A DNA stretch of 64,000 bases from Henricia sp. BOLD:AAB3569. Lineage: Eukaryota > Echinodermata > Asteroidea > Spinulosida > Echinasteridae. Both the position numbers and the translations under genes were made by a program. Each line of letters opens with the position of its first letter. Within the stretch, counting starts at the first letter, position 1. The stretch is taken from contig JBBELK010000821.1 of NCBI GenBank assembly GCA_037783545.1, forward strand, positions 62,001 through 126,000. The letters are read 5' to 3'. Shown here piece after piece: positions 18,087 through 43,305 of this stretch. Below the pieces are notes generated by a model. That model made no database searches, was not told the DNA's origin, and saw nothing but the letters and a program-made list of their open reading frames with translations.

Positions 18087-21000
18087 TTAAAAAGGGTCCA
18101 GTCTAGCTTTGCCCTTTGCCGTCTTGCCAAACTTGTCGATATCGCCGAAGTGTCGATCATTTACTACGACATCGTCGGTCGACGCCACGTACAGAACATT
18201 GTCGACAAACAAAGAGTCGTCATCTTGAACGCTTCTATCGCCAATGTCGAACTCTCCGCTCCTGTCGACATTTTCACGCGTGTCGACTTTTCCCGGTTTT
18301 CGGTCCTTTTTACTCTTTGTTTTCAAGCCGTTCTTTTCACTCTTGGCGTCCGTCTTTTTCTTGCTCTTTTTCCCCGCATTGTCGGCCATGTTCTTGTTGT
18401 CATGTTTGTCTTTCTTGTTGTCATGTTTGTCGTTCTGGTTGACGTTGTCGATCGGAGTTTCCACGGCAGTTTCATCAAGCGGTGCTGATGGGGACCCAAA
18501 GGGGCCATTGATCGGCCCAACCTCTGCATACATGCCGGTGTCGACCTGCTCGCGACAAGTACTATCTAACTTTTCATCTAAAAGAAATGTGGGAAAGTGA
18601 GTTGAATTTCCACAATCTGTATTTTAATTTCCATAGTTTATTTTTTAAGGAAAAAGAGAATCGCGAGATTGTCCAGCCGTAATATCACTCAAATCCGACA
18701 CCTTACCTTTCCCCATGCTATACACCCGAAACCCAGGGAAAAAAACATGTCCCCGTGATCCGGAGTTGGATTGCAATATAATAAAGAAAGGTAATATGTC
18801 TTACATCCTAAGACGTAGTTAACTAAGACATCATTATGTCAATTTAGTCTCGCAATAAACATTTCTGTGCCATAACTTGTATCTTGAAAGGCATGAAACT
18901 TAACTCACCTAAATTTAGATATGTGTCTTGGACTTAAAGGCACAGGCTCGTCAGCAATGCGCGCCCGCCAAATGCGTGCCACGCAATACGCAGCTCTCTA
19001 GCAAAGGCATGGAGCTGCGTGTTTCGAGCACGAATTTGGCGGGCGCGCATTGCTGACGAACCCGTGCCTTTAAGATGGTTATTATTGTAATCCACCCCCT
19101 GATTAATCTGGACTAGGACTCGAATTAGGAATCCAAACCTCAAATTGAATCTCAAATCTAAACCTCACCTTGTCTGTCACCCTCAGTCCTTACATCTTCA
19201 TCGTGCGATGCAGCACCTTCACCAAAACTGTCTGCCATTGTCTTGAGATCAGCATACGCGTAGTAATTCAGTGCTTCTTCTTGTGTGTTTTCGCTGTCAG
19301 GCTCCAAGACGTGATACAAAGGAGACATTGGCTGTCTTGAGATGGTATCATCTTCTGATCTACCTTCAGTCTCGGTATCTTTCTTCTTAGGTTTGGTAAC
19401 GCTAGCATACATTCCGGCGTCCATCTGCTCAGGAGTATCAAACTTTTCATCTATAAGAATAAATGAAATGTGTATTCTACAATAATCATGTATATTTTCC
19501 ATCTTTGTTTTTATAAAATGAATCTAGAGATTGTTAGGCCGTAATCACTGCGATCTCAATCAACCCAATTATTATTATTTTTCTCAATCAACCCAAAAAC
19601 TCTGTTTGCTAGGATAGGGCAACAATTTGTGTGTAAAAAAGCTATATTAGGGCGACACGCTCAATAGGGCGACAATTTGGTGTCGCCCTAATATTTTTGA
19701 GATTAAAAACAATTTTTTTAGGTCAAAAACAATTTTTTTTTAAATCGAGAAACATTTTTATTAGGTCTAGAACCGTCTCTCTTAGGTCTGTAACCATTTT
19801 TGGAAGCTTCGGGTAGAGAAATTTGGTGTCATTTTGAGTGATTCTTGCCTGATTTTTCGGTGGTCCCCGCGGGGAAAGGCTTCCCGAATTGTCGCCCTAT
19901 TGCCGCATCCAGAGTTCTTACAATTATTTTTGTCATTAAGGCAGCAACGCTATTTCCAAAAATAGCAGCTGGCCTTTCTGATGAAGTGGTTTTCTGTCTT
20001 ATATATCAGAAAAACCACAAAGAACTCGGTAAAAAAGCACACCACCAATTCTTTCAGAATGATACCAAAATACGAAACGCGATTGGCTAACCCACTCATA
20101 CCCATGCACCCTCGACGCTCCTTACGCCTCAGTAACCTTGTACGTGTACCCCCAAAAACCAGAGGAAAGAACAGGCCCTCACGATCCTGAAAATTTCATG
20201 TATAAAACCCAAGGCCGATCCCAAATCTGAGCATTAAGTTACCTTGTCTGTCATCCCCTGTCGAAACATCGTCATTATCATCATCCGATATAGCATCTTC
20301 TGCTATTGGTTTGGTAACGGCAGCATACGCGTAGTCGTAACTCCTTGCTTCTTGTTGACTCTCACTATCTGGCTCCAAGACGTGGTACACGGAAGACAGT
20401 GGCTGTCTTGAGATAATGCCATCTTCACCTGTGTCTTCGTCTGTTTCTTCATCTGTGTCTTCCTTCTTACGTTTGATAACGCTAGCGTATGCATTGGCGT
20501 TATCATTTGCTTCATCTACAGGCGTGTCGTGGCTCTCTGGCTCCATCACGTGATACACTGGTGATTGTGGTTGTCCTGGCAACGCAGCATCTTTTGATGA
20601 CGTGTTGGTGGTGGAGTGGGCGTTTGGTTCCTTCAGCGGGGCGCGGATGTCCTCGTGGAGGGTGTTGTAAATCGGCGATCTTGGTTGGGATGGGATGGCC
20701 TCTGTGTATTGGGCAGGTGTGGTTGCCTTCTGTGCCGGCATTGGTCTTGTGTATTGGCGTGGAGATGGTTTACTAGCAATGGGTTTCATACCGTATGGTG
20801 GAATGATCTGATGTCGGTCTGTATCGGAAGGTGGTTGGGACGATTGTCCACTCTGTCTGAAGTCCCTCAGCGGTACGTTTTGGTATGGCCGAGATAACTG
20901 ACCACTAAAGTGACCCCCCTCTCTCATGATCTCGTGGTCAGTAGAGGCAGCGGTGTGTCCGTGATTTTCGTACGCATTGGCCATCGAAGCTTGGGTTTCA

Positions 21001-21851
21001 ATGTCCGTCGAGTTCATTTCAGCAGACAGTCTAAAATTGGTAAACGCTGGCTCAGTGTTTTCACGGCTTCTCTTTGATTTTCTTCGTGACCACAGAAGGC
21101 ACGCAATGATGATTAGTAGGATGATTATGACAGCACCACAAGCACCTGCTGCAGCCGCTATTACTGTGATGTTTAGAGGGGAGTCTGCAGCGGGGGCCTC
21201 GGTAGTTGTGATCGGATCTGGTATGGTGGCGACAACGGTAGATTTCGGCGTGGGACTGGAATCGGAGGTTTCAAAAGTAGCAAGGACTTGTGATGTTGAG
21301 CTTGCGTCCTGATCACTGCGTGTAGAATAAAAACCCGTGACTCCATTTCGGGATGTGTCCGAACTCGTCAACACAACTTCTTCCGTCGCTGAATCGATAG
21401 GGGTAGTATGTAGCGAGGTTGTGGGAGGAATCACTGTCACGCGTATATTACCTGAACTGCTTCCTCCATTACGTTTTAAAGCAGCACAGTTAAAGGTGGC
21501 ATTATCCTCGATGTTGCTTCTGTGAATCGTTAGGCTCGTGGTTGCATCGTTATTTGCACCCATTTTATATCGTATAGTCCCTCTGTTGTCTGTAGTGTTA
21601 ATTAGCTGACATACAATCACATCACTTACACAGCTTGAAATATCCAATGAACCGGCTAATAAAACCATCCCACGGTACCAACGAATACCGGACAAAACAT
21701 TAGCAGGAATTATGTCCGTTATGAGACACGTCAGAGTAAACGGCTGGCCGCTTTGAACAGTCACTGATTCGTTTCTTGGTGTTACAGTAATTGACACCGA
21801 TGTCGACACTACTGAAGACAACAGAACAAAAATAACGGCCAAAGAATGCAT
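18087..21851 (-). CDS. IgR-A: one-Ig type I receptor with long tyrosine-rich tail, 793 aa
   Basis: Model: complement of join(18087..18577, 19169..19450, 20243..21851), 2382 nt; both introns GT-AG, phase 1. Residues 1-20 are a signal peptide. Residues 21-141 form one V-like Ig domain: C42 (TLTC), W58 (IRWYR), C122 (DNATFNC), plus an extra C74/C81 pair. A Thr/Ser/Pro stalk follows, then a membrane segment (about 228-254) and a basic stop. The tail has many tyrosine motifs: YENH, YQNV, YNTL, YHVM, YHVL (twice), YASV (twice), YADL, YAEV; these fit SH2 docking or ITIM-like sites. Exon 2 duplicates the end of exon 1, and exon 3 begins with the same DEKxD..GMYA sequence, so the tail grew by exon duplication. 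The last exon ends lysine-rich. The ligand is unknown. The ORF extends 33 nt upstream but only with a TTG; I use the ATG before the hydrophobic stretch. Confidence 0.72.
18934..19073. mobile_element. MITE family 1, copy in IgR-A intron 2
   Basis: Full palindrome, TTAAAGGCACAGG to CCGTGCCTTTAA, with TTAA ends and GGAGCTGCGT arms. Confidence 0.85.
19560..19920. repeat. Repeat with GGGCGACA/TGTCGCCC pairs in IgR-A intron 1
   Basis: TTAGGGCGAC and AATAGGGCGACAATT are matched by GTCGCCCTAATA and AATTGTCGCCCTATT nearby, with several AAAAACAATTTTTT blocks. It looks like a degenerate inverted-repeat element. Confidence 0.45.
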
Positions 21852-23000
21852 TATTCTTGTTAGCGTGTCTTGATGTTTTCTCAAAGCTGTTGCAAATTCG
21901 CTTTTGGCGAAAATTTATATATACAGTGTAGGAAGTAAACAATTCAACTTGAGAGGTCAACGCAGTGGTCGGACATCAATTCCGAGGCGGAAAATTCCCA
22001 TCTCTTAAACGACACTGACGTTATCATGACTTCCTTGCTCTATGCTTACGACGACGACAAATAAATAGTTGCCAATGGATTTTCTCTCGCAGATGTTGTA
22101 TAGGTTACAGTGTGTCGAAAATCCAAAGTGTAATTTCCGCAATGAACTTAACTGGTTTGTAGAAGATAATGCACAAACTTGTCATGTCTCTCACCAGAAG
22201 ATTCAGGATTAAGATACCTCCAAGCAAATGTGGACGTAAGGCAATTTGTACGAACTGCAGTGAGAAAGTGTCGATATGATTACAACATTTGGTGCTATAG
22301 GTTTTACAAGCGCTGATTTCATGTTGTGCTGGCAATATATGTGTAATTTCCTGGTTCCGTTCATGACCCGTGTTTGTCGCAAATCCGCGAAGCCATAACA
22401 AAAAGCTTAAAAAGGTGAATTTGAATAAGAATAAACTCCCTATTTTGAAGAAAGCCACAATAGCAGTAACTCGACAAGGAATCGGGTATTCCCCTCACAT
22501 TTCCAGGCCGCGACTGCATCCATTGTGCAAGATTCATACGCTCTGCCGCCCCCATAATAAATATTCAATAGCTTCACAATTTGCCTAAATTTATTTATGT
22601 TTCTTTATGTCTCTTTAATACTCCGATTATATTTGTTTTGATATTCACTCGGTTAATCAAACAATTTTGCAAAATGCTATCAATTAAGCTATCATTAGTA
22701 CGACGGACTGAAACAAATATAAAGCACATATAAACTGTACAAACAACTAAACAAAAACACACACTCTCGAGAATTAAAGGGGTATCCTTCTTTTCGAGCA
22801 ACTTCACGCACGGCAAACCTTTTAGTCAAATCGCTTTTGTACAGATTCTGATGAATTTATAACCGCCAACGATAGAGGGCCTACTTAGCACGTCATGCAG
22901 ATGTCCGATCATTCCCGGTTTGTCGAGCTGGAATTTGGAACAAGACTGAAATTAGGCGTGGATCGAGTGTTCGTTTACAAATTTATGTAAACAAATATTT
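21852..23000. repeat. Duplicated 5' flank, copy of IgR-A
   Basis: About 1.1 kb from the IgR-A start codon outward is almost base-identical to the flanks of IgR-C (27659-28800) and, in two blocks, IgR-D (30765-31340 and 31615-32160). Small ORFs inside it (for example 22105-22458) are shared only because the DNA is. Confidence 0.85.
21905..21925 (-). promoter_or_regulatory. TATA-like core promoter of IgR-A
   Basis: TATATATAAATT on the minus strand lies about 60 bp upstream of the IgR-A start codon. The identical motif is present at IgR-C (about 27720) and IgR-D (about 30827), is altered in IgR-B (about 24965), and is deleted in IgR-E. Confidence 0.5.
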
Positions 23001-23275
23001 GTTTAATATTTACACAAACAGAATATAAAACTGTAAGTAGTCATAAGAAGTATTGGAAAACCTTACACAAAGTGTGTCCCTTATGTCGTGTCCATTTTGA
23101 TATCTATAGACAATAATGTATACAGTTGACTCCCGTTATAAAGAACACCATTGCTATAATATTCGTTTAAGAAGGAAAAGTCCAACAAAAGCTCGTTTTC
23201 CATCAGTATGATTATGAGGTTCTTCTGGGTTCTTGCGAAGTAATTTGGAAGTCCCCAGGACCATCTTAGCAAAAC

Positions 23276-24902
23276 CTACATCCACGGATGGACAGCCTCA
23301 TAGTCGCCTCGCGTAGAGTCTTTACCTAAGAAAGACAGATTAAAGGAAACTCAAATAAGGACAAACGTCTTTAACATAAAAACTTTAACAGTCACGACGT
23401 ACGTGTATTAAATTTGTCACACTTTGTGTGCCAGTTAAATAACCTTTTAGACGCTTGGTGGCAGCAAACAAACCGGTCTTTTTTCCATTGCTACGTCATA
23501 CTGAGCATGCGTACTTCAGCTCAAACATTGGAAGAGGACCGGTTTGTTTGCTGCCACCACGCGCTTTAAAGTCTCCCAAATTAAGTTTGAGGTAAGACTC
23601 TGACCCACCGTGATCGTTGTGTGCCAGGGGCGTGTATCTCGCGTTATCAATATCAGCCAAGTTACCTCCGCCTTCATAAGAGATGATATACGGTGTGTAG
23701 CCATCAGTCCCGGGTCGAGATCGGATGTTGTCATCGGTCTGTGGCATGTTTAAAAGGTCTTGTGACGAATTCACAACTCCTGTGACCGGGGTTTCGTATG
23801 AATGGCTCTGGGTTTGTCGTGAACCGGCACTTTGCCATTGGTGGCTCTGGCTCGCGTAGCCGTCGTGATCTACGATGCCATTCCCGGTTCGTGGTTGGAT
23901 GTTGTCGGGCTGTGGCAGGTTTGAGACGCCCTGCGAAGAAGGTGCAGTTGTGTTCCTTCCTGTAATTGAGGTCTCGTACTGGCTCTGGGTTTGACGCGAG
24001 TCGGCACTTTGCCCTCGGTGGCTCCTGACTACCTCCATTTGTATGATGTCCTGGTTCGCGTCCGAGTTCACATTTTCACGTAAATTTGTCACATGCCCAT
24101 TGTTATTGTTCAGGGGAGAATCTGTCTTTGTGAGCGTTTCCAGTAGCTTCCTCCTAGATGTATACGCGATGATGAAAATGAGAATGAAGTTAACAATAAC
24201 ACTGGTTGCTAAAATTACTACAAGAGCAAGGAATACAGTATGAGATGGGTAGTATATGATACTGGGAGGAGGGGAGTTTGCGCCAAGAGACTTGGTTTTC
24301 GCCGTTGCTGTGGAATCAGAGGGTTCAAAACCATGGACATGTGATTTTGAGCTTGTGCTTTGATCAAGAGAGCTGCTTGTAGGAGCAACATCTGTAGCTC
24401 CATTTGAAGATAATGTATCCGAACTCGTCAACACAACTCCTTCCGTCGCTGAATCGATAGGGGTAGTATGTAGCGAGGTCATGGGAGGAATCACTGTCAC
24501 GCGTATATCACCTGAAATGCTCCCTCCATTACGTCTTACAGCAGCACAGTTGAAGGTGGCATTATCCTCGATGTTGCTTCTGTGGATCGTTAGGCTCATT
24601 GTTGCATCGTTATTTGTACCCATTTCATATCGTATAGTCCCTCTGTTGTCTGTTGTGTTAATTGGCTGACATACAATCACATCACTTACACAGATTGATA
24701 TATCCAATGAACCAGCAAAAGCCATCCCACGGTACCAACGAATGCCGGGCAAAACAGCAGACAGGTCAGTTATAAGACACGTCAGAGTAAACGGCTGACC
24801 GCTTTGAACAGTAACTGATTCGTTTCTTGGTGTTACAGTAGTTGACACCGATGTCGACACTACTGAAGACAACAGAACACAAATAATGACCAAAGAATGC
24901 AT
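23276..24902 (-). CDS. IgR-B: one-Ig type I receptor, 447 aa
   Basis: Model: complement of join(23276..23325, 23609..24902), phase 1. Signal peptide (MHSLVIICVLLSS), one Ig domain with TLTC, GIRWYR and DNATFNC, stalk, membrane segment (VFLALVVILATSV onward) and a tail with two QTQS..YET repeats, GYTPYIIS and YTPL. The exon should end at G|GTGGGT (donor 23608), because the acceptor TTTCTTAG at 23326 restores the frame into a 50-nt exon ending GDYEAVHPWM. Without splicing the ORF runs through a DNA hairpin to a stop at 23496, which I regard as intron. IgR-B has a slightly shorter region around the Ig C' strand than A, C and D. Confidence 0.7.
23457..23558. repeat. Hairpin in the last intron of IgR-B
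   Basis: GGTGGCAGCAAACAAACCGG at the left arm returns inverted at the right arm (CCGGTTTGTTTGCTGCCACC). The same hairpin is in IgR-C, D and E but not F. Confidence 0.85.
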
Positions 24903-25982
24903 TGTTCTTGTTAGCGTTGCTTGATGTTTTCTCAAAGCTGTTGCAAATTCACTATTGGCGAAAATTTACGTATATAGCAAGTAAAAAATTCAACTTGAGA
25001 AGTCAACGCAGTGGTCGGACATCAATTCCGAGGCGGAAAATTCTCATCTCTCGAACGACACTGTCGTTATCATGACTGACAACGACAAAGAAATAGTTGC
25101 CAAAGGATTATCTCTCGAAGATGTCGTTATAGGTTACGATGTGTCGAAACTCAAAAGTGTAATTTCCGCAATGAACTTACTGGTTTTCAGAAGATAATAC
25201 CATCAATGTCTGCTTTGTAGAGAACAAAAAAAGCAACTCAACGGAGAGTCGGGTATTCCCCTCACATTTCCAGGCCGTGACTGCATCCATTGTGCAAGAT
25301 GCATACGCTCTATACCGCCCCCCACAATAAATATTCAATAGTTTGGTAGACCCTTGACATCGAAATTTGCCTAAATATATTTATGTTTAGTAATATCTTT
25401 TTAATACTCCGATTATATTTGTTTTGACATTTACTAAAATGTTATTTAATAATCAAACCATTTTGCAAAATGCTATCAATTGAGCTGTCATTAGTACGAC
25501 GGACAGAAAAACTACAAAGCATATAATCTGTACAGACAATTAAGCAAAAACATAAACTCCGCTCGAGAATTAAAGGGGTATAATTCCTTTCGATCAACTT
25601 CATGCACGGCAAACCTTTTAGTCAAATTGCTTTGTCGAGCTGGAATGGTGGCCTAACAAGACTAACATTTGACGTGGAGTGTTCGTTTATAAATCGATGA
25701 GACAAAAACATACTTGTTTAATATTTACACAAACAGAATATAAAACTGTAAGTAATCATAAGGAGTACTGGAAAACCTTACACAAAGCGTGTCCATTATG
25801 TTGTGTCCATTTTCAACTCCCGTTAAAGAACATCATTGCTACAACATTCGTTTAAGAAGAAAAAGTCCAACAAAAGCTCGTTTTCCATCAGTATGATTAT
25901 GAGGTTCTTCTGGGTTCTTGCGAAGTAATTTGGAAGTCCTAAGGACCATCTTAGCAAAACCTACATCCACGGATGGATAGCC

Positions 25983-27658
25983 TTAAGGTGGGCACTGTAC
26001 GTCCTCATAGTCGCCTCGCGTAGAGTCTTTACCTGAGGAAGACAGATTAAAGGAAACTCAAATAAGGACAAACGTCTTTAATATAAATACTTTCTGGAGA
26101 CCAACTTTAATAGTCACGACGTACATGTATTACTAGTAGATTTGTCACACTTCGTGTGCCAGTTAGAACCTTTGAGACGCTTGGTGGCAGCAAACAAACC
26201 GGTCCTTTTCCATTTCTACGTCATACTGAGCATGCGCAGTTTAGCTCAAACGTGACGTAAACAATGGAAAAGGACCGGTTTGTTTGCTGCCACCACGCGC
26301 TTCAAAAGTCTCCTATTTAGTTTGAGGCAAGACTCTGACCCACCATTCGCGTTGTGTGCCAGGGGCGTGTAGCCGGCGTTATCACCCGAGTTACTTTCGT
26401 CATCATGAGCTATGATATACGGTGTGTAGCCGTCAGTCCCGGGTCGATGTTGGATGTTGTCATTGGTCTGTGGCATGTTTGAGAGGTCTTGTGACGAAGC
26501 TACAACTCCTGTGCCTGATGGGGTTTCGTATGAATGGCTCTGGGTTTGTCGTGAGCCGGCACTTTGGCCTTGGTGGCTCTGGTTCGCGTAGCCGTATTGA
26601 TCTACGATGCCATTCCCGGTTTGAGGTTGGATGTTGTCGGGCTGTGGCAGGTTTGAGACGTCCTGCGAAGAAGGTGCGGCTGTGTTCCTTTTTGATCCTG
26701 TAATCGATGACTCGTATGGATGGCTCTGGGTTTGACGCGAGTCGACACTTTGCCCTCGGTGGCTCCCGACTACCTCCATTTGTATGATGTCCTGGTTCGC
26801 GTCCGAGTTCACATTTTCACGTAAATTTGTCACATGCCCATTGTTATTGTTCAGGGAAGAATCTGTCTTTGTGAGGGCTCCTATTGGCTTCCTCCTAGAC
26901 GTAGCAAAGTACGCGATGATGAAAATGAAAATAAAGTTAACAGTAATACTGGTTGCTAAAGTTACTACAAGAGCAAGGAATGCAGTATGGGATGGGTAGT
27001 ACATGATACTAGGAGGAGGGGACTTTGTGCCAGGAGACTTGGTTTTCGCCGTTGCTGTGGAATCAGAGGGTTCAAAACCATGGACACGTGATGTTGAGCT
27101 TGTGCTTTGATCAAGAGAGCTGCTTGTAGGAGCACCATCTGTAGTTCTTTTTGAAGATAATGTATCCGAACTCGTCAACACAACCCCTTCCGTCGCTGAA
27201 TCGATAGGGGTAGTATGTAGCGAGGTTGTGGGAGGAATCACTGTTACGCGTATATTACCTGAACTGCTTCCTCCATTACGTTTTAAAGCAGCACAGTTAA
27301 AGGTGGCATTATCCTCGATGTTGCATCTGTGAATCGTTAGGCTCGTGGTTGCATCGTTATTTGTACCTGTTTCATATCGTATAGTCCCTCTGTTGTCTGT
27401 AGTGTTAATTAGCTGACATACAATCACATCACTTACACAGCTTGAAATATCCAATGAACCGGCTAATAAAACCATCCCACGGTACCAACGAATACCGGAC
27501 AAAACATTAGCAGGAATTATGTCCGTTATGAGACACGTCAGAGTAAACGGCTGGCCGCTTTGAACAGTCACTGATTCGTTTCTTGGTGTTACAGTAATTG
27601 ACACCGATGTCGACACTACTGAAGACAACAGAACAAAAATAACGACCAAAGAATGCAT
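25983..27658 (-). CDS. IgR-C: one-Ig type I receptor, 454 aa
   Basis: Model: complement of join(25983..26032, 26344..27658), phase 1. The ectodomain up to about residue 160 is nearly identical to IgR-A and IgR-D (differences such as METGTNN for KMGANN in the Ig domain). The membrane segment and tail belong to the B/C/D/E type: SRRKPIGALTKTD, HVTNLRENVNSD, two QTQS..YE repeats, GYTPYII and GYTPL. The terminal 50-nt exon (acceptor CCTCAG) adds GKDSTRGDYEDVQCPP. The unspliced frame would continue 32 codons through a hairpin. Confidence 0.72.
26183..26294. repeat. Hairpin in the last intron of IgR-C
   Basis: Arms GGTGGCAGCAAACAAACCGG and its complement, with GACGTAA/TACGTCA also mirrored inside. 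Longest of the four copies. Confidence 0.85.
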
Positions 27659-28800
27659 TATTCTTGTTAGCGTTGCTTGATGTTTTCTCAAAGCTGTTGC
27701 AAATTCGCTTTTGGCGAAAATTTATATATACAGTGTAGGAAGTAAACAATTCAACTTGAGAGGTCAACGCAGTGGTCGGACATCAATTCCGAGGCGGAAA
27801 ATTCTCATCTCTTAAACGACACTGACGTTATCATGACTTCCTTGCTCTATGCTTACGACGACGACAAATAAATAGTTGCCAATGGATTTTCTCTCGCAGA
27901 TGTTGTATAGGTTACAGTGTGTCGAAAATCCAAAGTGTAATTTCCGCAATGAACTTAACTGGTTTGTAGAAGATAATGCACAAACTTGTCATGTCTCTCA
28001 CCAGAAGATTCAGGATTAAGATACCTCCAAGCAAATGTGGACGTAAGGCAATTTGTACGAACTGCAGTGAGAAAGTGTCGATATGATTACAACATTTGGT
28101 GCTATAGGTTTTACAAGCGCTGATTTCATGTTGTGCTGGCAATATATGTGTAATTTCCTGGTTCCGTTCATGACCCGTGTTTGTCGCAAATCCGCGAAGC
28201 CATAACAAAAAGCTTAAAAAGGTGAATTTGAATAAGAATAAACTCCCTATTTTGAAGAAAGCCACAATAGCAGTAACTCGACAAGGAATCGGGTATTCCC
28301 CTCACATTTCCAGGCCGCGACTGCATCCATTGTGCAAGATTCATACGCTCTGCCGCCCCCATAATAAATATTCAATAGCTTCACAATTTGCCTAAATTTA
28401 TTTATGTTTCTTTATGTCTCTTTAATACTCCGATTATATTTGTTTTGATATTCACTCGGTTAATCAAACAATTTTGCAAAATGCTATCAATTAAGCTATC
28501 ATTAGTACGACGGACTGAAACAAATATAAAGCACCTATAAACTGTACAAACAACTAAACAAAAACACACACTCTCGAGAATTAAAGGGGTATCCTTCTTT
28601 TCGATCAACTTCACGCACGGCAAACCTTTTAGTCAAATCGCTTTTGTACAGATTCTGATGAATTTATAACCGCCAACGATAGAGGGCCTACTTAGCACGT
28701 CATGCAGATGTCCGATCATTCCCGGTTTGTCGAGCTGGAATTTAGAACAAGACTAAAATTAGGCGTGGATCGAGTGTTCGTTTACAAATTTATGTGAAAA
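27659..28800. repeat. Duplicated 5' flank, copy of IgR-C
   Basis: Offset of about 5.8 kb from the IgR-A flank with only scattered substitutions; the TATA-like box is kept. Confidence 0.85.
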
Positions 28801-29114
28801 AATACTTGTTTAATATTTACACAAACATAATATAAAACTGTAAGTAATCATAAGGAATACTGTAAACCTTACACAAAGTGTGTCCCTTATGTTGTGTCCA
28901 TTTTGATATCTTGGGATATAGACAATAATTTATACAGTCAACTCTCGTTAAAGAACATCATTGCTACAATATTCGTTTAAGAAAGACAAGTCCAACAAAA
29001 GCTCGTTTTCCATCAGTATGATTATGAGGTTCTTCTGGATTATTGCGAAGTTATTTGGAAGTCCCCATAGCCAGGACCATCTATAGCAAAACCTACATCC
29101 ACGGATGGATAGCC

Positions 29115-30764
29115 TTAAGGTGGGCACTGTACGTCCTCATAGTCGCCTCGCGTAGAGTCTTTACCTGAGAAAGACAGATTAAAGGAAACTCAAATAAGGA
29201 CAAACGTCTTTAATATAAAAACTTTCTGGAGACCAACTTTAATAGTCACGACGTACATGTATCAGATTTGTCACACTTTGTTGCCAGTTAGAGACTTTTG
29301 AAACGCCTGGTGGCAGCAAACAAACCGGTCCTTTTCCATTGCCTACGTCATACTGAGCATGCGTATTTCAGCTCAAACGTTGGAAGAGGACCGGTTTGTT
29401 TGCTGCCACCACGCGCTTCAAAGTCTCCCATTAAGTTTGAGGTAAGACTCTGACCCACCATTCGCGTTGTGTGTGAGGGGCGTGTAGCCGGCGTTATCGC
29501 TCGACCTATTACCACCTTGATGAGAGATGATGTACGGTGTGTAGCCGTCAGTTCCGCCTCGAGGTTGGATGTCGTCGGTCTGGAGCAGGTTTGAGACGTC
29601 TTGAAAAGAAGCTACAACTCCTGTGACTGGGGTTTCGTATGGATGGCTCTGGGTTTGTCGTGAGCCGGCATCTTGCCCTTGGTGGCTCTGGCTCGCGTAG
29701 CCGTCTTGATCTACGATCATATTTCCGGTTCGTGGCTGGATGTTGTCGGGCTGTGGCAGGTTTGAGACGTCTTGCGAAGAAGGTGCAGTTGTGTTCCTTC
29801 CTGTAATTGAGGTCTCGTATGAATGGCTCTGGGTTTGACGCGAGTCCGCACTTTGCCCTCGATGGCTCCCGACTACCTCCATTTGTATGATGTCCTGGTT
29901 CGCGTCCGAGTTCACATTTTCACGTACATTTGTCACATGCCCATTGTTATTGTTCAGGGAAGAATCTGTCTTTGTGAGGGCTTTCAGTAGCTTCCTCCTA
30001 GATGTAACAAGGTACGCGATGGTGAAAATGAGAATGAAGTTAACAATAACACTGGTTGCTAAAATTACTACAAGAGCAAGGAATACAGTATGGGATGGGT
30101 AGTATGTGATACTGGGACGAGGGGAGTTTGCGCCAGGGGACTTGGTTTTCGCCGTTGCTGTGGAATCAGAGCTTTCAAAACTAGTGTAGACGTGTGATGT
30201 TGAGCTTGTGCTTTGATCAAGAGAGCTGCTTGTAGGAGCAACATCTGTAGCTCCATTTGAAGATAATGTGTCCGAACTCGTCAACACAACCCCTTCCGTC
30301 GCTGAATCGATAGGGGTAGTATGTAGCGAGGTTGTGGGAGGAATCACTGTCACGCGTATATTATATAAACTGCTTCCTCCATTACGTTTTAAAGCAGCAC
30401 AGTTAAAGGTGGCATTATCCTCGATGTTGCTTCTGTGAATCGTTAGGCTCGTGGTTGCATCGTTATTTGCACCCATTTTATATCGTATAGTCCCTCTGTT
30501 GTCTGTAGTGTTAATTAGCTGACATACAATCACATCACTTACACAGCTTGAAATATCCAATGAACCGGCTAATAAAACCATCCCACGGTACCAACGAATA
30601 CCGGACAAAACATTAGCAGGAATTATGTCCGTTATGAGACACGTCAGAGTAAACGGCTGGCCGCTTTGAACAGTCACTGATTCGTTTCTTGGTGTTACAG
30701 TAATTGACACCGATGTCGACACTACTGAAGACAACAGAACAAAAATAACGGCCAAAGAATGCAT
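29115..30764 (-). CDS. IgR-D: one-Ig type I receptor, 451 aa
   Basis: Model: complement of join(29115..29164, 29459..30764), phase 1. Ectodomain almost equal to IgR-A (same KMGANN in the Ig domain), with a GGSSLYNIR change. Tail of the B/C type with HVTNVRENVNSD, two QTQS..YET repeats, GYTPYIIS and GYTPL. The terminal exon reads GKDSTRGDYEDVQCPP as in C and E. If the last intron were retained the protein would end LKLNGRL after 13 further codons. Confidence 0.72.
29319..29410. repeat. Hairpin in the last intron of IgR-D
   Basis: Same arms as in IgR-B and IgR-C. Confidence 0.85.
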
Positions 30765-32160
30765 TATTCTTGTTAGCGTTGCTTGATGTTTTCTCAAAGC
30801 TGTTGCAAATTCGCTTTTGGCGAAAATTTATATATACAGTGTAGGAAGTAAACAATTCAACTTGAGAGGTCAACGCAGTGGTCGGACATCAATTCCGAGG
30901 CGGAAAATTCTCATCTCTTAAACGACACTGACGTTATCATGACTTCCTTGCTCTATGCTTACGACGACGACAAATAAATAGTTGCCAATGGATTTTCTCT
31001 CGCAGATGTTGTATAGGTTACAGTGTGTCGAAAATCCAAAGTGTAATTTCCGCAATGAACTTAACTGGTTTGTAGAAGATAATGCACAAACTTGTCATGT
31101 CTCTCACCAGAAGATTCAGGATTAAGATACCTCCAAGCAAATGTGGACGTAAGGCAATTTGTACGAACTGCAGTGAGAAAGTGTCGATATTATTACAACA
31201 TTTGGTGCTATAGGTTTTACAAGCGCTGATTTCATGTTGTGCTGGCAATATATGTGTAATTTCCTGGTTCCGTTCATGACCCGTGTTTGTCGCAAATCCG
31301 CGAAGCCATAACAAAAAGCTTAAAAAGGTGAATTTGAATAAGAATAAACTCTCTATTTTGAGAGTGAATTCACATAAAGTACAAACCGAACATGTATAAA
31401 GGAAGTACTGACTGACTGCCCCCGCACAATGCCCAGTGTATTAGGCTGTATATTATACTCCTTAGTAAATGGTTTATTGCTCGTGATTTACGCTAAATCT
31501 GTGACTAAGTTTTATATCAGCCCCGGTTTGAAAACATTCCCCATGTCGGCAACCATCACCACGAAGGAGTCTACACCAATAAGTTATGCAATCAATATCT
31601 GCTTTGTATTTTTTTAAGAGAGCCACAATAGCAGTAACTCGACAAGGAATCGGGTATTCCCCTCACATTTCTGCGGCCGCGACTGCATCCATTGTGCAAG
31701 ATTCATACGCTCTGCCGCCCCCATAATAAATATTAAATAGCTTGTTGGACCCCACATCACAATTTGCCTAAATTTATTTATGTCTCTTTAATACTCCGAT
31801 TATATTTTTTTTGATATTTACTCGGTTAATCAAACAATTTTGCAAAATGCTATCAACTGAGCTATCATTAGTACGACGGACAAAACAAATATAAAGCACC
31901 TATAAACTGTACAAACAACTAAACAAAAACACACACTCCTCTCGAGAATTAAAGGGGTATCCTTCTTTTCGATCAACTTCACGCACGGCAAACCTTTGAG
32001 TCAAATCGCTTTTGTACAGATTCTGATGAATTTATAACCGCCAACGATAGAGGGCCTACTTAGCACGTCATGCAGATGTCCGATCATTCCCGGTTTGTCG
32101 AGCTGGAATTTAGAACAAGACTGAAATTAGGCGTGGATTGAGTGTTCGTTTACAAATTTA
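30765..32160. repeat. Duplicated 5' flank, copy of IgR-D, with extra segment
   Basis: It matches the A and C flanks except for an approximately 275-bp segment (31345-31620) that is present, diverged, also in the IgR-E flank (34605-34840). So A and C share a deletion, or D and E share an insertion. Confidence 0.75.
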
Positions 32161-32482
32161 TGTGAAAAAATACTTGTTTAATATTCACACAAACATAATA
32201 TAAAACTGTAAGTAATCATAAGGAATACTGTAAACCTTACACAAAGTGTGTCCCTTATGTTGTGTCCATTTTGATATCTTGGGATATAGACAATAATTTA
32301 TACAGTCAACTCTCGTTAAAGAACATCATTGCTACAATATTCGTTTAAGAAAGACAAGTCCAACAAAAGCTCGTTTTCCATCAGTATGATTATGAGGTTC
32401 TTCTGGATTATTGCGAAGTTATTTGGAAGTCCCCATAGCCAGGACCATCTATAGCAAAACCTACATCCACGGATGGATAGCC

Positions 32483-34104
32483 TTAAGGTGGGCACTGTAC
32501 GTCCTCATAGTCGCCTCGCGTAGAGTCTTTACCTGAGAAAGACAGATTAAAGGAAACTCAAATAAGGACAAACGTCTTTAATATAAAAACTTTCTGGAGA
32601 CCAACTTTAATAGTCACGACGTACATGTATCAAATTTGTCACACTTTGTTGCCAGTTAGAGACTTTTGAAACGCCTGGTGGCAGCAAACAAACCGGTCCT
32701 TTTCCATTGCCTACGTCATACTGAGCATGCGTATTTCAGCTCAAACGTTGGAAGAGGACCGGTTTGTTTGCTGCCACCACGCGCTTCAAAGTCTCCGATT
32801 AAGTTTGAGGTAAGACTCTGACCCACCATTCGCGTTGTGTGTCAGGGGCGTGTAGCCGGCGTTATCGCTCGACCTATTACCACCTTGATGAGAGATGATG
32901 TACGGTGTGTAGCCGTCAGTTCCGCCTCGAGGTTGGATGTCGTCGGTCTGGAGCAGGTTTGAGACGTCTTGAGAAGAAGCTACAACTCCTGTGACTGGGG
33001 TTTCGTATGGATGGCTCTGGGTTTGTCGTGAGCCGGCATCTTGCCCTTGGTGGCTCTGGCTCGCGTAGCCGTCTTGATCTACGATCATATTTCCGGTTCG
33101 TGGCTGGATGTTGTCGGGCTGTGGCAGGTTTGAGACGTCTTGCGAAGAAGGTGCAGTTGTGTTCCTTCCTGTATAATTGAGGTCTCGTATGAATGGCTCT
33201 GGGTTTGACGCGAGTCCGCACTTTGCCCTCGATGGCTCCCGACTACCTCCATTTGTATGATGTCCTGGTTCGCGTCCGAGTTCACATTTTCACGTAAATT
33301 TCTCACATGCCCATTGTTATTGTTCTTTGTGAGGGCTTCCAGTAGCTTCCTCCCAGATGTATACGCGATTATGAAAATGAGAATGAAGTTAACAGTAACA
33401 CTGGTTGCTAAAGTTACTACAAGAGCAAGGAATACAGTATGAGATGGGTAGTATGTGATACTGGGACGAGGGGAGTTTGTGCCAAGAGACTTGGTTTTCG
33501 CCGTTGCTGTGGAATCAAATGGTTCAAAACTAGTGTAGACGTGTGATGTTGAGCTTGTGCTTTGATCAAGAGAGCTGCTTGTAGGAGCAACATCTGTAGC
33601 TCTTATTGAAGATAATGAACTCGTCAACACAACCCCTCCTGTTGTTGAATCGATAGGGGTAGTATGTAGCGAGGTCGTCGGAGAAATCACTGTCACGCGT
33701 ATAGCACTCGAATAGCTTCCTCCATTACCTCCTACAGCACAGTTGAAGATGGCATTATCATCGATGTTGCTTCTGTGAATCGTTAGGCTCGTGGTTGCAT
33801 CGTTATTTGCACCCATTTTATATCGTATAGTCCCTCTGTTGTCTGTAGTGTTAATTGGCTGACATACAATCACATCACTTACACAGATTGAAGTATCCAA
33901 TGAACCAGCTAAAGCCACCCCAGCACGGTACCAACGAATACCGGACAAAACATTAGCAGGAATTATGTCCGTTATGAGACACGTCAGAGTAAACGGCTGG
34001 CCGCTTTGAACAGTAACTGATTCGTTTCTTGGTCTTACAGTAATTGACACCGATGTCGACACTACTGAAGACAACAGAACAAACATAATGGCCAAAGAAT
34101 GCAT
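32483..34104 (-). pseudogene. IgR-E: frameshifted one-Ig receptor
   Basis: Exons equivalent to D: complement of 32827..34104 and 32483..32532. Signal peptide (MHSLAIMFVLLSS), Ig domain, stalk, membrane segment and first part of the tail are intact. At 33171-33176 the sequence GTATAATTGA replaces GTAATTGA of IgR-D, a 2-bp gain that shifts the frame; the shifted frame ends after about 30 codons. The original frame resumes intact to the end (32786-33088) and the terminal GDYEDV exon is unchanged. The 5' side also lacks the approximately 60 bp with the TATA-like box. A damaged gene is likely, though an allele or sequence error cannot be excluded. The 3' half is almost identical to IgR-D, while the 5' half is not. 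Confidence 0.7.
32677..32778. repeat. Hairpin in the last intron of IgR-E
   Basis: Same arms as in IgR-B, C and D; nearly identical to the D copy. Confidence 0.85.
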
Positions 34105-35039
34105 TGTTCTTGTTAGCGTGTCTTGATGTTTTCTCAAAGCTGTTGAGAAGTCAACGCAGTGGTCGGACATCAATTCCGAGGCGGAAAATTCTCATCTCTC
34201 GAACGACACTGTCGTTATCATGACTTACGACGACGACAAATACATAGTTGCCAAACGATTATCTCTCGAAGATGTCGTTGTAGGTTACAATGTGTCGAAA
34301 ATCCAAAGTGGAATTTCCGCAATGAACTTACTGGTTTTCAGAAGATAATGCACAAACTTGTCATGTCTCTGGAAGATTCAGGATTAAGATACCTCCATAA
34401 AATGTGGACGTAAGGCAATTCATGAACTGGAGTGAGAAAGTGTCGATATGATTTGGTGCTATAGGTTTTACAAGCGCTGATTTTATGTTGTACTGGCAAT
34501 ATATGTGTAATTTCCTGGTTCCGTTCATGACCCGTGTTTGTCGCAAATCCGCGAAGCCATAACAAAAGGCTTAAAAAGGTGAATTTGAATTAGAATACAT
34601 TCTCTATTTTTAGAGTGAATTCACATAAAGTACAAACCGAACATGTATAAAGGAAGCACAATGCCCAGTGTATTTGGCTGTAGTTATACTCCTCATAAGT
34701 TTATTGCTTGTGTTTACGCTAAATATCGGACCCGATTTGAAAACATTCCCATTTGGTGGTCATACTAGTATACCATCGCCAAGAGTGAACCTACACGCAT
34801 GAAATACCACCGATTTCGGCTTTGTAGAGAACCAAAAAACCAACTCGGCTGAACGGAGAGCCGGGTATTCCCCTTACATTTCCAGGCAGCGGCTGCATCC
34901 ATTGTGCAAGATTCATACGCTCTGCCACTCCCACACAAAAAAAGTCAATAGTTTGGTAGACCCCACGTCACAATCTGCCTTAATATATTTATGTTTATTT
35001 GTCTTTTTAATACTCCGATTACATTGGTTTTGATATTTA

Positions 35040-35330
35040 CTGAAAATGTAAACAAGTGCATGTAATAGGAATGTATTTTTTTGTACTCTAAATAATTAAG
35101 TTGGTCTAACACACAACACACATTTTGGTTAATTTGTGATTGCACAAACTTTGGTTTTCTTGGATATATATTGAATAACATTACCAAACGCTTTTCCACA
35201 CATTTCCAAAAACTGCGAAGTCTATGCGTTCATCATAATTACACAAAATGAAATAATTATTCAATCTGGCACTTTAATTATTATGCGTGATTGCAATTAT
35301 TTTACAGCAAAGCTTGGGATTACAAATTAG
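35040..35330. repeat. Second copy of the 17200-17440 repeat
   Basis: It carries TTCTTGGATATATATTGAAT, TGCGTGATTGCAATTATTTT and GCAAAGCTTGGGATTAC in the same order. It sits between IgR-E and IgR-F, and the two copies bracket genes A to E. Confidence 0.7.
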
Positions 35331-35663
35331 GCGTGGAGTGTTTGTTAATTTGTTTATAACCGATGTGGAAAACAATTGTTTAATATTTACAGAAACATAT
35401 ATAAAACTGTAAGTAATCATATAGTACTAGGAACCCTTACACAAAATGTGTTCCTTATGTTGTGTCCATTCTGATATCTGGAGATATAGACAATATACAG
35501 TCAACTCCCGTTTAGAACACCGTTGTTACAACTTTCATTTGAGAAGGAAAATCCGGATTTTCATTTTCATTCTTGCAAGGTAAGCCCCGAGACCATCCGG
35601 TATTATTAGCAATAAGTACATCCACATGCAGATGGACAGCATTACGGTGGTCGCTCTAGGTCC

Positions 35664-37276
35664 CTATAGGTCCTCATAGTCGCTGGACGTGGAGTTTTTA
35701 CCTGAGAAAGACGGAATATAGGAAACTAAAATAAGGACAAACGTCTTTAATATAAGTGACACATTTTAAATTAGCAGCGACATCCTCATCCTCGTCCGCG
35801 TCTTTTCATTTGCAAATTCTATCACAAAAGAAAGCACTGAGACTCTCGTATACAGTGACAATTTGAAACTCCTCAATACGCGGGAGCTTCAGTGTGCCAA
35901 GTTTATTGGTAAGACCCACCGTGTAAACGCAGTTCCAGTGCCAGGAGCGTGTAGCCTGCGTTATCATCCAAGTTACTTCCGCTTTGATGAGAGATGATAT
36001 ATGGTGTGTAGCCATCAGTTCCGGCTCGAGGCTGGATGTCGTCGGTCTGAGGCAGGCTTAAGACGTCCTGCGAAGAAGGTGCAGCTCTCTTCGTTCCTGT
36101 AATCGAGGTCTCGTATGGATGGCTCCGGGTCTGAAGCGAGCTGGCACGTTGCCTTTGGTAGCTCTGGTTCATCGCGTCCAAGGTCACACTTTCACGTGAA
36201 TTTGACTCATTCTGATGACTATTGCTTGGAGGAGTGTCTGTCGTTGTAAGGGTTCTCAGTAGATTCCTCCTAGATACGTACACAATGATGATTACGAGAA
36301 TGGTGTTGACAGTGACACTGGTTGCTGCAATAGCAACGATAGGAGTATTGGATGGGCAGTTATCGGGCTGTGTGTTGGTAATGATCGAGTCACTGTTAGA
36401 TGGACTGCTGGTTGTATGCTCTGTAGATGTCCCATCCGAATGACCTTGCTCTGATGACATAGGAATCGTTTGGTCAGTAGACATTTGTGATCCATCAGTC
36501 GTTGTACTGGCTGGAAGGGTTATTGGTCTGAAAGTTGGATTTTCTGGAAAGCCAACTGGTCCAAAGGTACAATTTTGGTTGAGGTTTGGGTGCGTGTCAC
36601 TAGTCACGTGACAAGTAAACAGTAAATTTGGTCTGAGAGCAGTCAAGTCGAGACTGCTTTGCAGCTGATCTCCAACGACAACAGCGCTGTTTGAAATCGA
36701 CATGTTTGTTGAATCGTAGGCCACTGACCATCCAAGGGATATTCCTGGTTGGGCTAGGTTGTAGGAGCAAGTCAAAGTGACATGTGTACCAGAGGTACTT
36801 GCTTGATATGATGATATGGTGCATCTTGGGACGTTAACGGTCACGCGTATTTCCCTAGAAATGCTGCTGCCAGATCTTTTCAAAACAGAGCAGCTGAAGG
36901 TGGTATTATCCTCGATGTCGCTTCTATGAATCGTCAGGCTCGTTTTTGCATCATTGTTTGCGCCTCTTTCAAATTGTACCATCCCTCGGTTGTCCGTTGT
37001 GTTAACCGGATCACATGGCATGAATTGACTAGATCCACATAATACGTCAACTGAGTGAAACGAGCCATACTCGACCCAAGCTAAGCTGGGCGAACGAAAC
37101 CATCTAACACTGGATATAGCACTGGGCGAAGTTATGTCCGCTATGAGACACGTCAGAGTAAACGGTTGACCTCTCTGAACAGTAACTGATTCGGACAGTG
37201 GTGTTACAGTAAGTGGCACCGACGACGTCTTGACAGAAGACAACAGAACAGAAATAATGACCAAAGAGTACACCAT
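35664..37276 (-). CDS. IgR-F: two-Ig type I receptor with ITIM-like end, 464 aa
   Basis: Model: complement of join(35664..35701, 35920..37276), phase 1. Signal peptide (MVYSLVIISVLLSS), first Ig domain with TLTC, VRWFRS and DNTTFSC, second Ig domain with HVTLTCSY, LGWSV and LLFTCHV, then stalk, membrane segment and a tail with YETSITG, GYTPYIIS and GYTLL. The first domain resembles IgR-A to E; the second resembles the second domain of IgR-G and H (VVGDQLQSSLDL against VVGDHVQNRLNL). The 38-nt terminal exon gives KNSTSSDYEDL then stop; SDYEDL fits the ITIM consensus (S/I/V/L-x-Y-x-x-L/V/I). It lacks the intron hairpin of B to E. Of this array it looks closest to the ancestral form. Confidence 0.75.
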
Positions 37277-40593: not shown

Positions 40594-42767
40594 TTAATAT
40601 GGATCCAGTCTTTCTATCCCCTTCGTGGAGAAGAAGTCATTTATATTAAATTTCTGCTCATCCATGAGGGAGAAATCTGCCCCTATGGTGTTGTCCTCGA
40701 ATAGTCGGTTCTCTCGGTTAGTGCCAGCGGTTCGCGCGCGGCGAGACCGGCCAGGTCCAGCGTAGGTTTGACTCGAGCCGCGGTCCTCCAAACTTAGCAC
40801 TGTGGAATTAAATGAAAAGAAGAATGTATTATAGCTCATTTGTGTAACAGATCTCCCCAAATACTCCCCAGTCCCTAACTCTCCCACCACCCCCCCCCCC
40901 CCCCCATTTGAATAAAACAAGTGTCTTTTGTTGAATAAAACAAGTGTCTTTTGTTGAATAAAACAAGTGTCTTTTGTTGTGTCCTGGGGTCAATTTCATG
41001 GCGCTGCTCAGCACAAACATTTGCTTAGCACAGGATTTGTTTGCTTTATTTTGAAAAATAGGATGCCAGCCAAAATCAAAATCGATGTGTACTGAAAGGT
41101 ATTCTCCTACTTTTGCGAAGAACACAAGTCGGCGTATAATTTTAGCTTGTAATCCATTTTATAAAGCAAATAAATCCTGTGCTAAGCAAATTTGTTTGCT
41201 TAGCAACCGGTCCACCTTAAAATTCCCAAGTCAAAATCGACTAGATTATTTTTCCAGAGACAATAAAATGACAATTTAGGGTTAAAATTGCTCGGAAATG
41301 GGTCTTTGTGAGCTTGACAAAAAATATAATGACCCTGAAAGTGTCATATTTGGACCAGGAAAGAGAGTTGGCTCAATTCTAAAACAGATTCCGGGTCAAT
41401 CTGACCTAGACGTTTGCCGAGTACATTATGCCAACTCCTAATTACTGCACTGATAGAACCATGTTGCTTCTGGTACGGAAATCTGGACCAGGTATAGGCT
41501 GGACCGTGGAGAGTATAGACCCTTTGCATGGGCGGCCATGACAGGGGACAGTCACATTGTCACCGTGAGTCAAGCACGAGTAGGAACTTTTTGTCACATA
41601 ATTTAAATACAAATGTATACGAAAACCTGCCCCAGTCATGGCTGCCAATGCATAGGAATGCACATGAATAATCTATATAATATGCTTACCCGATGCGCCA
41701 TTTGTTTCATCCTTTTGGCGATGGCGGTGCGGACGTGATGTCTGACCGCTGGTGGTATCATCATGCCGTGTTAGGCAGAGAGAAAAGTGGGCGTGTGCTC
41801 CTCTATCGCCCCGCCTCTTTGCCCTACACTTACACACCACGCACAGTATGATTAGAAGGAGCGTGAGTGCAATGGTGCCAGAAGATGCTGCGATCAAGAC
41901 TACCGAGTTCTGAGGAGGAGAGAGGGTTTGGGTTGACGAAGCAAAGGTTGTGCCTTGTGAAGAAGTGGCGATGGACGCGGGAGAAGCGTGGGTTGTTTCT
42001 GGAATCCATGGAGCGACTGTAGTGGTGGTCAACTGGACTTGGACGGAACAGTTTCTGATGATATCGGGATACGCCTCGCTTCTCATGTAACAAGTGAATA
42101 TGTGGTTACTATGGGATATATTCCATTCACTGAGATTAAGACGATTCTGGACGTGATCCCCCACTACGATGGAATCAATTGATAAAGATTTGCTGATCGA
42201 ATTCTCTAAAACTTGCCACTCGAGAGAGACCACTGGCCTACCTTTTTCGGATGTGCAGGTCAAAATTGAAGAGCCGTCGGGGGTTTCGGGGAGGTCCGGT
42301 GACTTGGAACACATGGGATAGGTTGTGTTTGGAAGATAGTTGACAGTCACCAATATGGAATCGTGTCCCAAGTCAAATCCACGGGCCGTGCCTGAAGTCC
42401 GTACCTCACATTTAAACCATCCGTTGTCCCCATCATTACTTTGATTAATTGTTAACGTGAACCTTACTGTTTTACCAGTCGTGTTTTCATATTGCACACA
42501 TCCACGACTGTCACGTGTGATATTCCGATTGTCACCGTCCCCGATGTAAATTTCACCGTATGAAGTGTTTGAATTACCCACATACCATATTGCTCTGGTT
42601 ACATTCTCGTCATCTTCTATTTCGATGTTACACGACAACGTCAACTTGTCCCCTCTGTTGACAGTCACATTATGTCGACTCGCTGTGACATTAACTGACA
42701 TCGTCAATGTTACCTGTGCAGCAAACACCAAGAGCAAAGTAAGACATCCTCCATATTGTGGTGCCAT
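40594..42767 (-). CDS. IgR-G: two-Ig type I receptor, 427 aa
   Basis: Model: complement of join(40594..40799, 41690..42767), phase 1, donor G|GTAAGC and acceptor TTCCACAG. Signal peptide (MAPQYGGCLTLLLVFAAQ), first Ig domain with LTLSC, AIWYVG and DNGWFKC, second with SILTC, SLEWQV and IFTCYM, many N-glycosylation sites, a Ser/Thr stalk, and a membrane segment (VVLIAASSGTIALTLLLI) followed by CKCRAKRRG. The second exon adds an Arg-rich segment, SQTYAG, and an acidic end. The link to this exon rests on phase, orientation and splice-site quality only. Without it the ORF ends GASGKHII. The gene is head-to-head with IgR-H. Confidence 0.68.
40890..40908. repeat. C tract in the IgR-G intron
   Basis: A run of about 18 C residues, followed by a triplicated AATAAAACAAGTGTCTTTTG (40913-40977). 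Confidence 0.85.
40983..41212. mobile_element. MITE family 5 (CCAATTTCATAAAGC-like), diverged copy
   Basis: TCAATTTCATGGCGCTGCTC at the left and AGCAAATTTGTTTGCTTAGC at the right, with TTTATAAAGCAAATAAATCC mirrored by GGATTTGTTTGCTTTATT. Related to 52651-52898. Confidence 0.6.
41514..41656. mobile_element. MITE family 3, copy at the 3' side of the IgR-G main exon
   Basis: TATAGACCCTTTGCATGGGC to GTCATGGCTGCCAATGC. It lies about 35 bp beyond the donor of the main exon of G, and a related copy lies at the matching end of H. Confidence 0.75.
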
Positions 42768-43305
42768 CGTTCCTCCGAAAGATCTCCAAAAAGCAAATCT
42801 TTAACACTAACAGCAGTCCAGATTAACGAAGAGTACCAAACATTTCAGGTCGGTGCACGTGATCACACTTCCTCGTTTCTTTAATTTAACGAAGCCTGTC
42901 GCAATTTAAAACATTTACTCCGACATTGTTTTGTGGATGTTTCCACTCGGGTCTTGTTTACATGAAACACATCCCTGTGAAGTTGTGTATTCGTTCTTGG
43001 TCATTTCTGGCACTGCGTAGACAGTACTTATGATTGTAAAAATTACGAGACGAAAACGAAACTCTATATACTGATGGTGAATTGTATTAAACGGTGTGCG
43101 TTTAAAATGCGAGTGAGGGTACAAAGCAGATCATATAGCAGTTCATAACCGTGAAAAATGGTTTTGAAACGTTGCCAAAGTGAAAGCTGGAATAGAAAGT
43201 GAAAGAAATTAAATAAATGATCATCACCTGCACGCAAACATTCTAGCCAGGTGATTTGTTGGGGTATGTGGTTGATCCCTTGGAGAACTTTAAACAGAAG
43301 GCACG
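42768..43305. promoter_or_regulatory. Shared upstream region of IgR-G and IgR-H
   Basis: The two start codons diverge across 538 bp. No clear TATA box is visible close to either start. The region is unique relative to the A-F flanks. Confidence 0.4.

Follow-up and report, generated by a model that had tools for sequence, protein, structure and literature searches.

The paired receptors of vertebrates, among them KIR, LILR, PILR and SIRP, combine related ectodomains with unlike tails, lie in clusters, undergo gene conversion and differ in gene content between haplotypes. Those of the KIR and LILR families, which belong to the vertebrate leukocyte receptor complex, are built of C2-type immunoglobulin (Ig) domains only, and they carry either immunoreceptor tyrosine-based inhibitory motifs (ITIMs) in the tail or a charged membrane span for adaptors, as in the adaptor pairing of activating KIR. 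Outside the vertebrates, the Alr genes of Hydractinia encode clustered, polymorphic type I receptors, interrupted by introns, with several Ig-like domains and tyrosines in the tail, and the VCBPs of amphioxus are secreted proteins with a chitin-binding domain. For the tunicate Botryllus, one report describes the fester family as polygenic, its members being type I receptors with an Ig domain of variable type and Yxx[ILV] motifs in the tail and its haplotypes differing in how many gene pairs they hold, and the fester co-receptors (FcoRs) as combining a V Ig, a sushi and two C2 domains (PMC12065747). The present work concerns eight putative receptor genes, here named B to I, in a 64,000-nucleotide stretch of the genome of the sea star Henricia sp. 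(the window: positions 62001-126000 of contig C821 in an assembly of 740.7 Mb, to which all other C-numbered contigs also belong). We hold it to be moderately probable that this locus is one of several clusters of germline-diversified, paired receptors of the Ig superfamily, serving recognition at the cell surface. In the open-licence literature, as judged by titles and the openings of abstracts, we found no such family described for sea stars.

Six of the genes, B to G (A to F in a preliminary description of the same DNA), form an array of open frames on the minus strand between positions 18087 and 37276. All eight window genes contain a V-set domain above the Pfam gathering score of 26 bits (31.8 to 38.3 bits in B-G; expectation values, E, from 2.7e-12 to 7.9e-7 in B-I), and these values, together with frames of 339 to 660 codons, exclude that the array arose by chance; on this basis the eight are assigned to the V-set branch of the Ig superfamily. 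Each of the six array genes encodes a hydrophobic N-terminus, a region linking the Ig domain to the membrane in which Ser and Thr make up 32-44% of the residues (in G this region takes in a second Ig domain), a single membrane span and a tyrosine-bearing tail. The preliminary description of six type I Ig receptors on one strand, each with signal peptide, Thr/Ser stalk, span and tyrosine tail, was thus borne out by the frames and by the profile comparison that it had proposed, as were its mentions of fresh duplications (DNA identity is 93.4% over 2.4 kb between D and E, and 94.8% over 2.6 kb between E and F), of one broken member (F, by a frameshift in the tail) and of unequal tails, that of B being unlike those of C-F. 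Its "one or two Ig domains" needs narrowing to a V-set in all six and a second Ig domain in G alone, and its array, real as far as it goes, was drawn too small, leaving out H and I (41673-45288).

The structural models agree with the V-set assignment. The V domain of D was predicted to adopt a V fold with a mean predicted local distance difference test score (pLDDT) of 78.2, falling below 50 at residues 44-49 and 55-63, in the C'-D stretch, and the 50 matches listed for it in the PDB were all V domains or chains containing them (E from 1.5e-7; template modelling scores, TM, by query length 0.55-0.75), the nearest of those listed being VNAR, T-cell receptor V and antibody V domains. The two-domain model of G was weak (pLDDT 69.9; TM by query length 0.29-0.37 among the 50 matches listed).

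One sign that heads and tails have been combined anew comes from receptor B. Measured in steps of 100 alignment columns, B stays 95-100% identical to D between a point some 860 bases before the ATG and roughly base 490 of the frame, and 96-100% identical to E from some 530 bases before the ATG (the preceding step giving 84%) to the same point, past which its identity falls to 56-77% for two steps and then to 29-54% against C-F, staying under 58% beyond the stalk. Within the coding head, 5 of 481 sites separate B from E (99.0% identity) and 9 separate it from D (98.1%); the tail of B found no match elsewhere in the genome, its own exon 2 excepted. B joins a D/E-like head to a genome-unique tail, with the break in the stalk. 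Part of the similarity of the B/D and C/E heads is explained by segmental duplication of two-gene blocks (21353-25198 against 27160-31083, 92.5%). The tail of B contains 10 Yxx[ILVM] sites, compared with 2.59 in shuffles (none of 5000 reached this number). The spliced frame of B is open throughout its 793 residues, with donors AAG/GTAACT and AAG/GTGAGG, acceptors TTATAG/ATG and TTTTAG/ATG, and matching phases; a separate gene at 18087-18623 and 19158-19523 was rejected, these open reading frames (ORFs) being exons 3 and 2 of B by the same splice signals and phase. A 144-base element lies in intron 2 of B (18933-19076) and again at 38823-38966, as an inverted match of 94%.

A comparable conflict was seen among C-F. 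Informative sites of the heads, including the part upstream, group D with E and C with F at 21 positions, E with F and C with D at 9, and support the third split at none, while in the tails 41 sites favour E with F and C with D and the other splits receive 5 and 3; tail DNA identity between E and F reaches 97.8%. Runs of shared polymorphic sites extend to 32 for D-E (0 of 2000 permutations) and 36 for E-F (1 of 2000), and to 8 to 10 for the other four pairs (8 to 80 of 2000), these figures being per pair and uncorrected for six pairs. The head and tail histories, as read from these alignments, conflict both in C-F and in B. At the 3' ends of C-F we also observed a hairpin repeat with long inverted arms (23380-23560, 26150-26330, 29280-29460 and 32650-32830), into which the C-termini of C and D continue; because the copy at the end of D matches 16 other contigs, a mobile element probably supplies these C-termini.

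Beyond the array, H and I face each other head to head, both intronless, I being the V + C2 unit of H twice over. They belong to a dispersed family of intronless V + C2 receptors with two tail classes. One C459 gene, used as a genome query, gave 62 matches, many of them weak or fragmentary, and from the family 14 short-tail genes (three on C459, two on C429, four on C480, two on C70, two on C52 and one in the window) and 11 long-tail genes (three, two, four and one on C459, C429, C480 and C70, and one in the window) were classed, either by reading the tail or by an alignment match; the loci are fewer than the genes counted, since C459 and C429 are probably alleles. One C70 gene (960314-961538) and one C209 fragment stand outside these 25. 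Next to each of the 11 long-tail genes lies a short-tail gene on the opposite strand; 10 of these pairs are head to head, with gaps starting at 0.5 kb, and the C480 gene at 1051915 has a tail-to-tail neighbour only. Frames are unbroken in 20 of the 25 genes: in 13 of the 14 short-tail genes (the exception is on C480 at 1066248) and in 7 of the 11 long-tail ones, where two on C480 are broken (1086842 and 1094211), one on C70 is a fragment (967418) and C459b has no in-frame signal peptide. As in the window genes other than B, the intact relatives examined run from signal peptide through tail in a single exon, and a Pfam scan of 14 of the family, H included, detected a V-set domain in 8 and an I-set domain in 11 at E <= 0.001. 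The idea of a type I Ig receptor family that has many copies and evolves fast therefore held in this echinoderm genome, and what the genome search shows is not a conserved developmental gene in single copy. Weak matches (E 1e-8 to 6e-5) in frames of 352-941 codons on C248, C406, C93, C329, C368, C369, C275 and C166 suggest further single-exon Ig receptors outside the counted family.

The long tail ends in PPPPEYT and a stop in all nine long-tail genes examined outside the window; in I this stop has been lost and 11 further residues follow. The H-I spacer resembles that of C459b (best blastn E 8e-45), that of C459a (9e-38) and that of C429 (4e-29); the border of the first is uncertain, because the point at which the C459b long-tail gene begins is itself uncertain. 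We regard spacers of this type as candidates for a shared two-way promoter.

Trees of the two parts of these proteins gave different pictures. On the ectodomain tree (18 rows, 10 short-tail and 8 long-tail), tail class changes 6 times, against a shuffled mean of 6.2, the ectodomains of H and I do not pair together, and forcing the 8 long-tail rows into one clade costs 181 log units and is rejected (approximately unbiased test, p 9.5e-9). The tree of 15 tails separates the two classes with 100/100 support and rejects a grouping of C459 with C429 (p 4e-55). By the time the groups were named, the tails had already been inspected. Both trees cover the family minus the second C429 pair, read later, the long-tail gene C459c_L, cut at the end of its stretch, the cut short-tail gene of C480 at 1056600, the broken C480 long-tail gene at 1086842 and the C70 and C52 genes read only in part, the tail tree also being without C480e_S, C480e_Lfrag and the first half of I. 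We conclude from these topologies that exchange or homogenisation of heads has taken place between the tail classes, with the tails kept apart.

The variability of the V domain is concentrated in its loops. Across 16 V + C2 units, with loop borders drawn from the G model and the alignment, mean entropy was 0.64 in the framework, 1.25 in BC, 1.25 in C'-D, 2.01 in FG and 0.42 in C2, and the excess of the loops over the framework was reached in none of 10000 permutations. In the seven C480/C70 genes, which include one broken copy, the ratio of nonsynonymous to synonymous differences (pN/pS) was 2.21 in the loops (bootstrap P 0.0022), 1.03 in the framework and 0.46 in C2; such counts rest on non-independent pairs and can be biased by gene conversion and by gaps in the loops. 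Contigs C459 and C429 are colinear in opposite numbering (700000-702400 against 1907413-1909813, 100%; 797600-800000 against 1812971-1815341, 96%; most of 900000-902400 against 1706786-1708224, 93%), with three pairs on the former and two on the latter. They are probably two haplotypes that differ in pair number; a large recent duplication may be the alternative, two haplotypes being the simplest reading. When the best V match among the six C459 genes was taken for each of the four C429 genes, two of the four crossed tail class: C429x_L matched the short-tail C459a_S (85.1%) and C429x_S the long-tail C459a_L (75.2%), with C429y_L matching C459b_L (78.4%) and C429y_S matching C459a_S (71.9%). 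This evidence on haplotypes and on pN above pS comes from the related clusters (C459/C429 and C480/C70, respectively) and not from the B-G array; no second copy of the window locus was detected, 10000-12600 and 48600-50400 each having its own place as sole full-length match. An element of about 670 bases on C459 (C459:900263-900934) is probably a mobile element of recent activity, because copies at 99-100% lie on other contigs (at least about 35 among the matches listed).

The sequence shows V-set heads that are borne on Ser/Thr-rich stalks and have been exchanged between genes by recombination or gene conversion, and unlike tails set on related heads; in the H/I family, short-tail and long-tail genes are neighbours on opposite strands, and the spacer is conserved among the four head-to-head pairs that were compared. 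If the locus encodes paired recognition receptors, the loops of the V domain might bind a variable ligand, from a pathogen or from self; the short-tail member could be a non-signalling, decoy or adaptor-dependent partner, and the long-tail member could couple through its tyrosines and its PPxY motif, a ligand of WW/Nedd4-type domains. B, in turn, might couple to SH2 proteins through its run of Yxx-hydrophobic sites, and the cell would weigh the outputs of receptors competing for the same or related ligands. The immune role, the opposed signalling and the ligand binding are what we infer from sequence; immune, allorecognition and gamete roles may each apply to the family.

Several observations weigh against paired receptors. 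No enrichment of Yxx[ILVM] over shuffles was found in the tails of C, D, E, G and I, and the short tails have few or no tyrosines. Among the eight tails a single strict ITIM-type site occurs, in B, and 1796 of 5000 shuffles reach this number, leaving a strict reading of the tails as ITIM or ITAM (its activating counterpart) unsupported. None of the eight membrane spans contains a charged residue, so that adaptor pairing as in activating KIR is unsupported as well. Positive selection in the B-G array is likewise unsupported, since for 8 of the 10 pairs within B-F the V domain has a nonsynonymous rate (dN) below the synonymous rate (dS), the other two, B-E and D-E, carrying very few changes, and in the six C459/C429 genes no loop excess was found (pN/pS 1.07, P 0.35; framework 0.59, C2 0.57). 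Within the C459/C429 ectodomain clade two long-tail rows do pair, at 96/96. As to the arrangement, head-to-head gaps reach 19 kb on C480, no long-tail match was found near the two C52 short-tail genes, and of the 25 genes in the two classes 5 are broken, truncated or without an in-frame start.

These last losses would be natural if the mosaics merely reflected the neutral birth and death of tandem duplicates, through passive unequal crossing-over and with no paired function. F is broken, C and D extend into a repeat, two long-tail genes and one short-tail gene of C480 and one long-tail gene of C70 are broken or partial, the C459b long-tail gene lacks an in-frame start, segmental duplication accounts for part of the B/D and C/E head similarity, and the framework pN/pS of 1.03 in the C480/C70 group is also as neutrality would have it. 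Still, most of the classed genes (20) keep unbroken frames, C2 pN/pS is low in both groups (0.46 and 0.57), the tail classes stay separate across clusters and the spacers of the pairs resemble one another, and we consider this explanation improbable. More improbable by far is a retrogene family that would keep the ordinary role of a single-copy Ig receptor, intronless through ancient retroposition and expanded for dosage: the single-exon frames of the window genes other than B and of the intact relatives fit it, yet no intron-bearing parent stood out in the genome searches (an exon-wise search could miss one), and the diversity of the loops speaks against dosage alone.

A role in fast-evolving adhesion or gamete recognition has more to be said for it. 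Here the V-set heads would act in cell-cell or sperm-egg contact, with sexual conflict rather than immunity driving change in loops and copy number. G has weak sequence matches to CD276, NEGR1, neurotrimin and JAM, among antibody chains (E 7.5e-7 to 0.31), and loop diversification with a copy-number difference fits reproductive proteins equally well; against this, the presence of unlike tails on heads that are intermixed, and the tail of B with its many Yxx sites, would suggest opposed signalling over plain adhesion, and we regard the proposal as unlikely, if worth bearing in mind.

The preliminary description had compared the array with KIR, LILR, fester and Alr. What survives of this is a likeness in how the genes are built and how they evolve (related heads joined to unlike tails, a copy number that probably differs between haplotypes, variable V loops), not family membership, and the features particular to KIR/LILR and to fester co-receptors failed in the tests. 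With KIR, LILR, PILR and SIRP the sea star genes share clusters, within which related ectodomains are found on unlike tails, together with gene conversion and a difference in gene content between haplotypes; unlike them, they are mostly intronless, of V-set or V + C2 composition and arranged as opposite-strand short-tail and long-tail neighbours, and the window genes have uncharged spans and no set of strict ITIMs; none of the homology tests made assigned them to any of these families. Membership in KIR or LILR was rejected, the N-terminal domains being V-set and the genome that of an echinoderm, and the tail and span features of those families were not found. Alr genes, with which the comparison was by description only, are also clustered and encode type I Ig-like receptors with tyrosine tails, and differ in their introns, their several Ig-like domains and their phylum. 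Amphioxus VCBP and IgVJ-C2 likewise show germline V-domain diversity in an invertebrate deuterostome, but VCBPs are secreted and have a chitin-binding domain, and membership was rejected, as the Pfam scan gave no chitin-binding domain and all eight genes have a membrane span. With fester, the likeness extends to polygenic type I receptors, a V-type Ig domain, Yxx[ILV]-type tail motifs and a haplotype difference in pair number, while the sushi domain of the FcoRs and the tunicate host set it apart (PMC12065747); co-receptor membership was rejected, no sushi match appearing in Pfam scans of the window genes and relatives.

Table 1. Coordinates of the receptor genes and associated features in the window.
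Feature	Position	Strand	Description
Receptor B	18087..21851	-	signal peptide, one V-set (34.4 bits), stalk, membrane span, tail of ~536 residues; three exons, 21851-20243, 19450-19169, 18577-18087
Receptor C	23496..24902	-	single exon, 468 aa, one V-set
Receptor D	26246..27658	-	single exon, 470 aa, one V-set; last ~25 residues in dispersed hairpin repeat
Receptor E	29418..30764	-	single exon, 448 aa, one V-set
Remaining F tail homology	32786..33289	-	ORF in another frame
Receptor F	33085..34104	-	339 aa; frame stops early in tail
Receptor G	35903..37276	-	single exon, 457 aa; V-set (38.3 bits) and second Ig (ig, 23.0 bits); tail related to C-F by alignment
Receptor H	41673..42767	-	single exon, 364 aa, V + C2-like domains, short-tail class
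H-I spacer	42768..43305		538 bases between facing ATGs; candidate two-way promoter
Receptor I	43306..45288	+	single exon, 660 aa, V-C2-V-C2, long-tail class, PPPPEYT motif, extended beyond usual stop

To the left of the receptor genes lie exons of a pyridine nucleotide-disulphide oxidoreductase (9126-12402), single copy in the assembly and presumably PYROXD1-like, and a Jagunal-family gene (15851-16342). To their right, a minus-strand frame at 49487-49954 has a weak polysaccharide deacetylase match (20.0 bits; cut-off 23.1) and one partial DNA relative, on C171, and a tandem array occupies 62209-63030 (172-base unit, 4.7 copies, 95% matches). An Rfam scan gave a tRNA match only. Elsewhere in the assembly, the 48.6 kb contig C955 contains three COX1 copies spaced 16,221 bases apart, equal to the length of the mitochondrial contig C2104, and is probably an assembly concatemer. 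The mitochondrial contig itself points to a sea star: in its COX1, judged by the conservation of that gene, 8 AAA codons occupy positions that should hold Asn, 5 AGA and 1 AGG positions that should hold Ser, and 21 ATA positions that should hold Ile, which is the echinoderm code, and the 16S-ND2-ND1 block is inverted, in keeping with sea star gene order.

To our knowledge, most paired receptors that combine related heads with opposed tails come from vertebrates. Receptors encoded by gene pairs are also described in a colonial tunicate (PMC12065747). It is tentatively possible, at somewhat less than even confidence, that an echinoderm independently evolved germline-encoded, haplotype-variable paired Ig receptors with exchangeable V heads, a two-way promoter for the head-to-head pairs and a multi-tyrosine tail that captured the head of a neighbour, for immunity or allorecognition akin to that of KIR or fester; among the open-licence papers listed, no system of this kind appeared for the phylum. 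If true, this would be a further deuterostome case of the paired-receptor design, drawn from mostly intronless V-set genes. It would provide concrete genes for work on self/non-self recognition in sea stars, in which the conserved spacer, the two tail classes and the variable loops make the paired-receptor idea directly testable.

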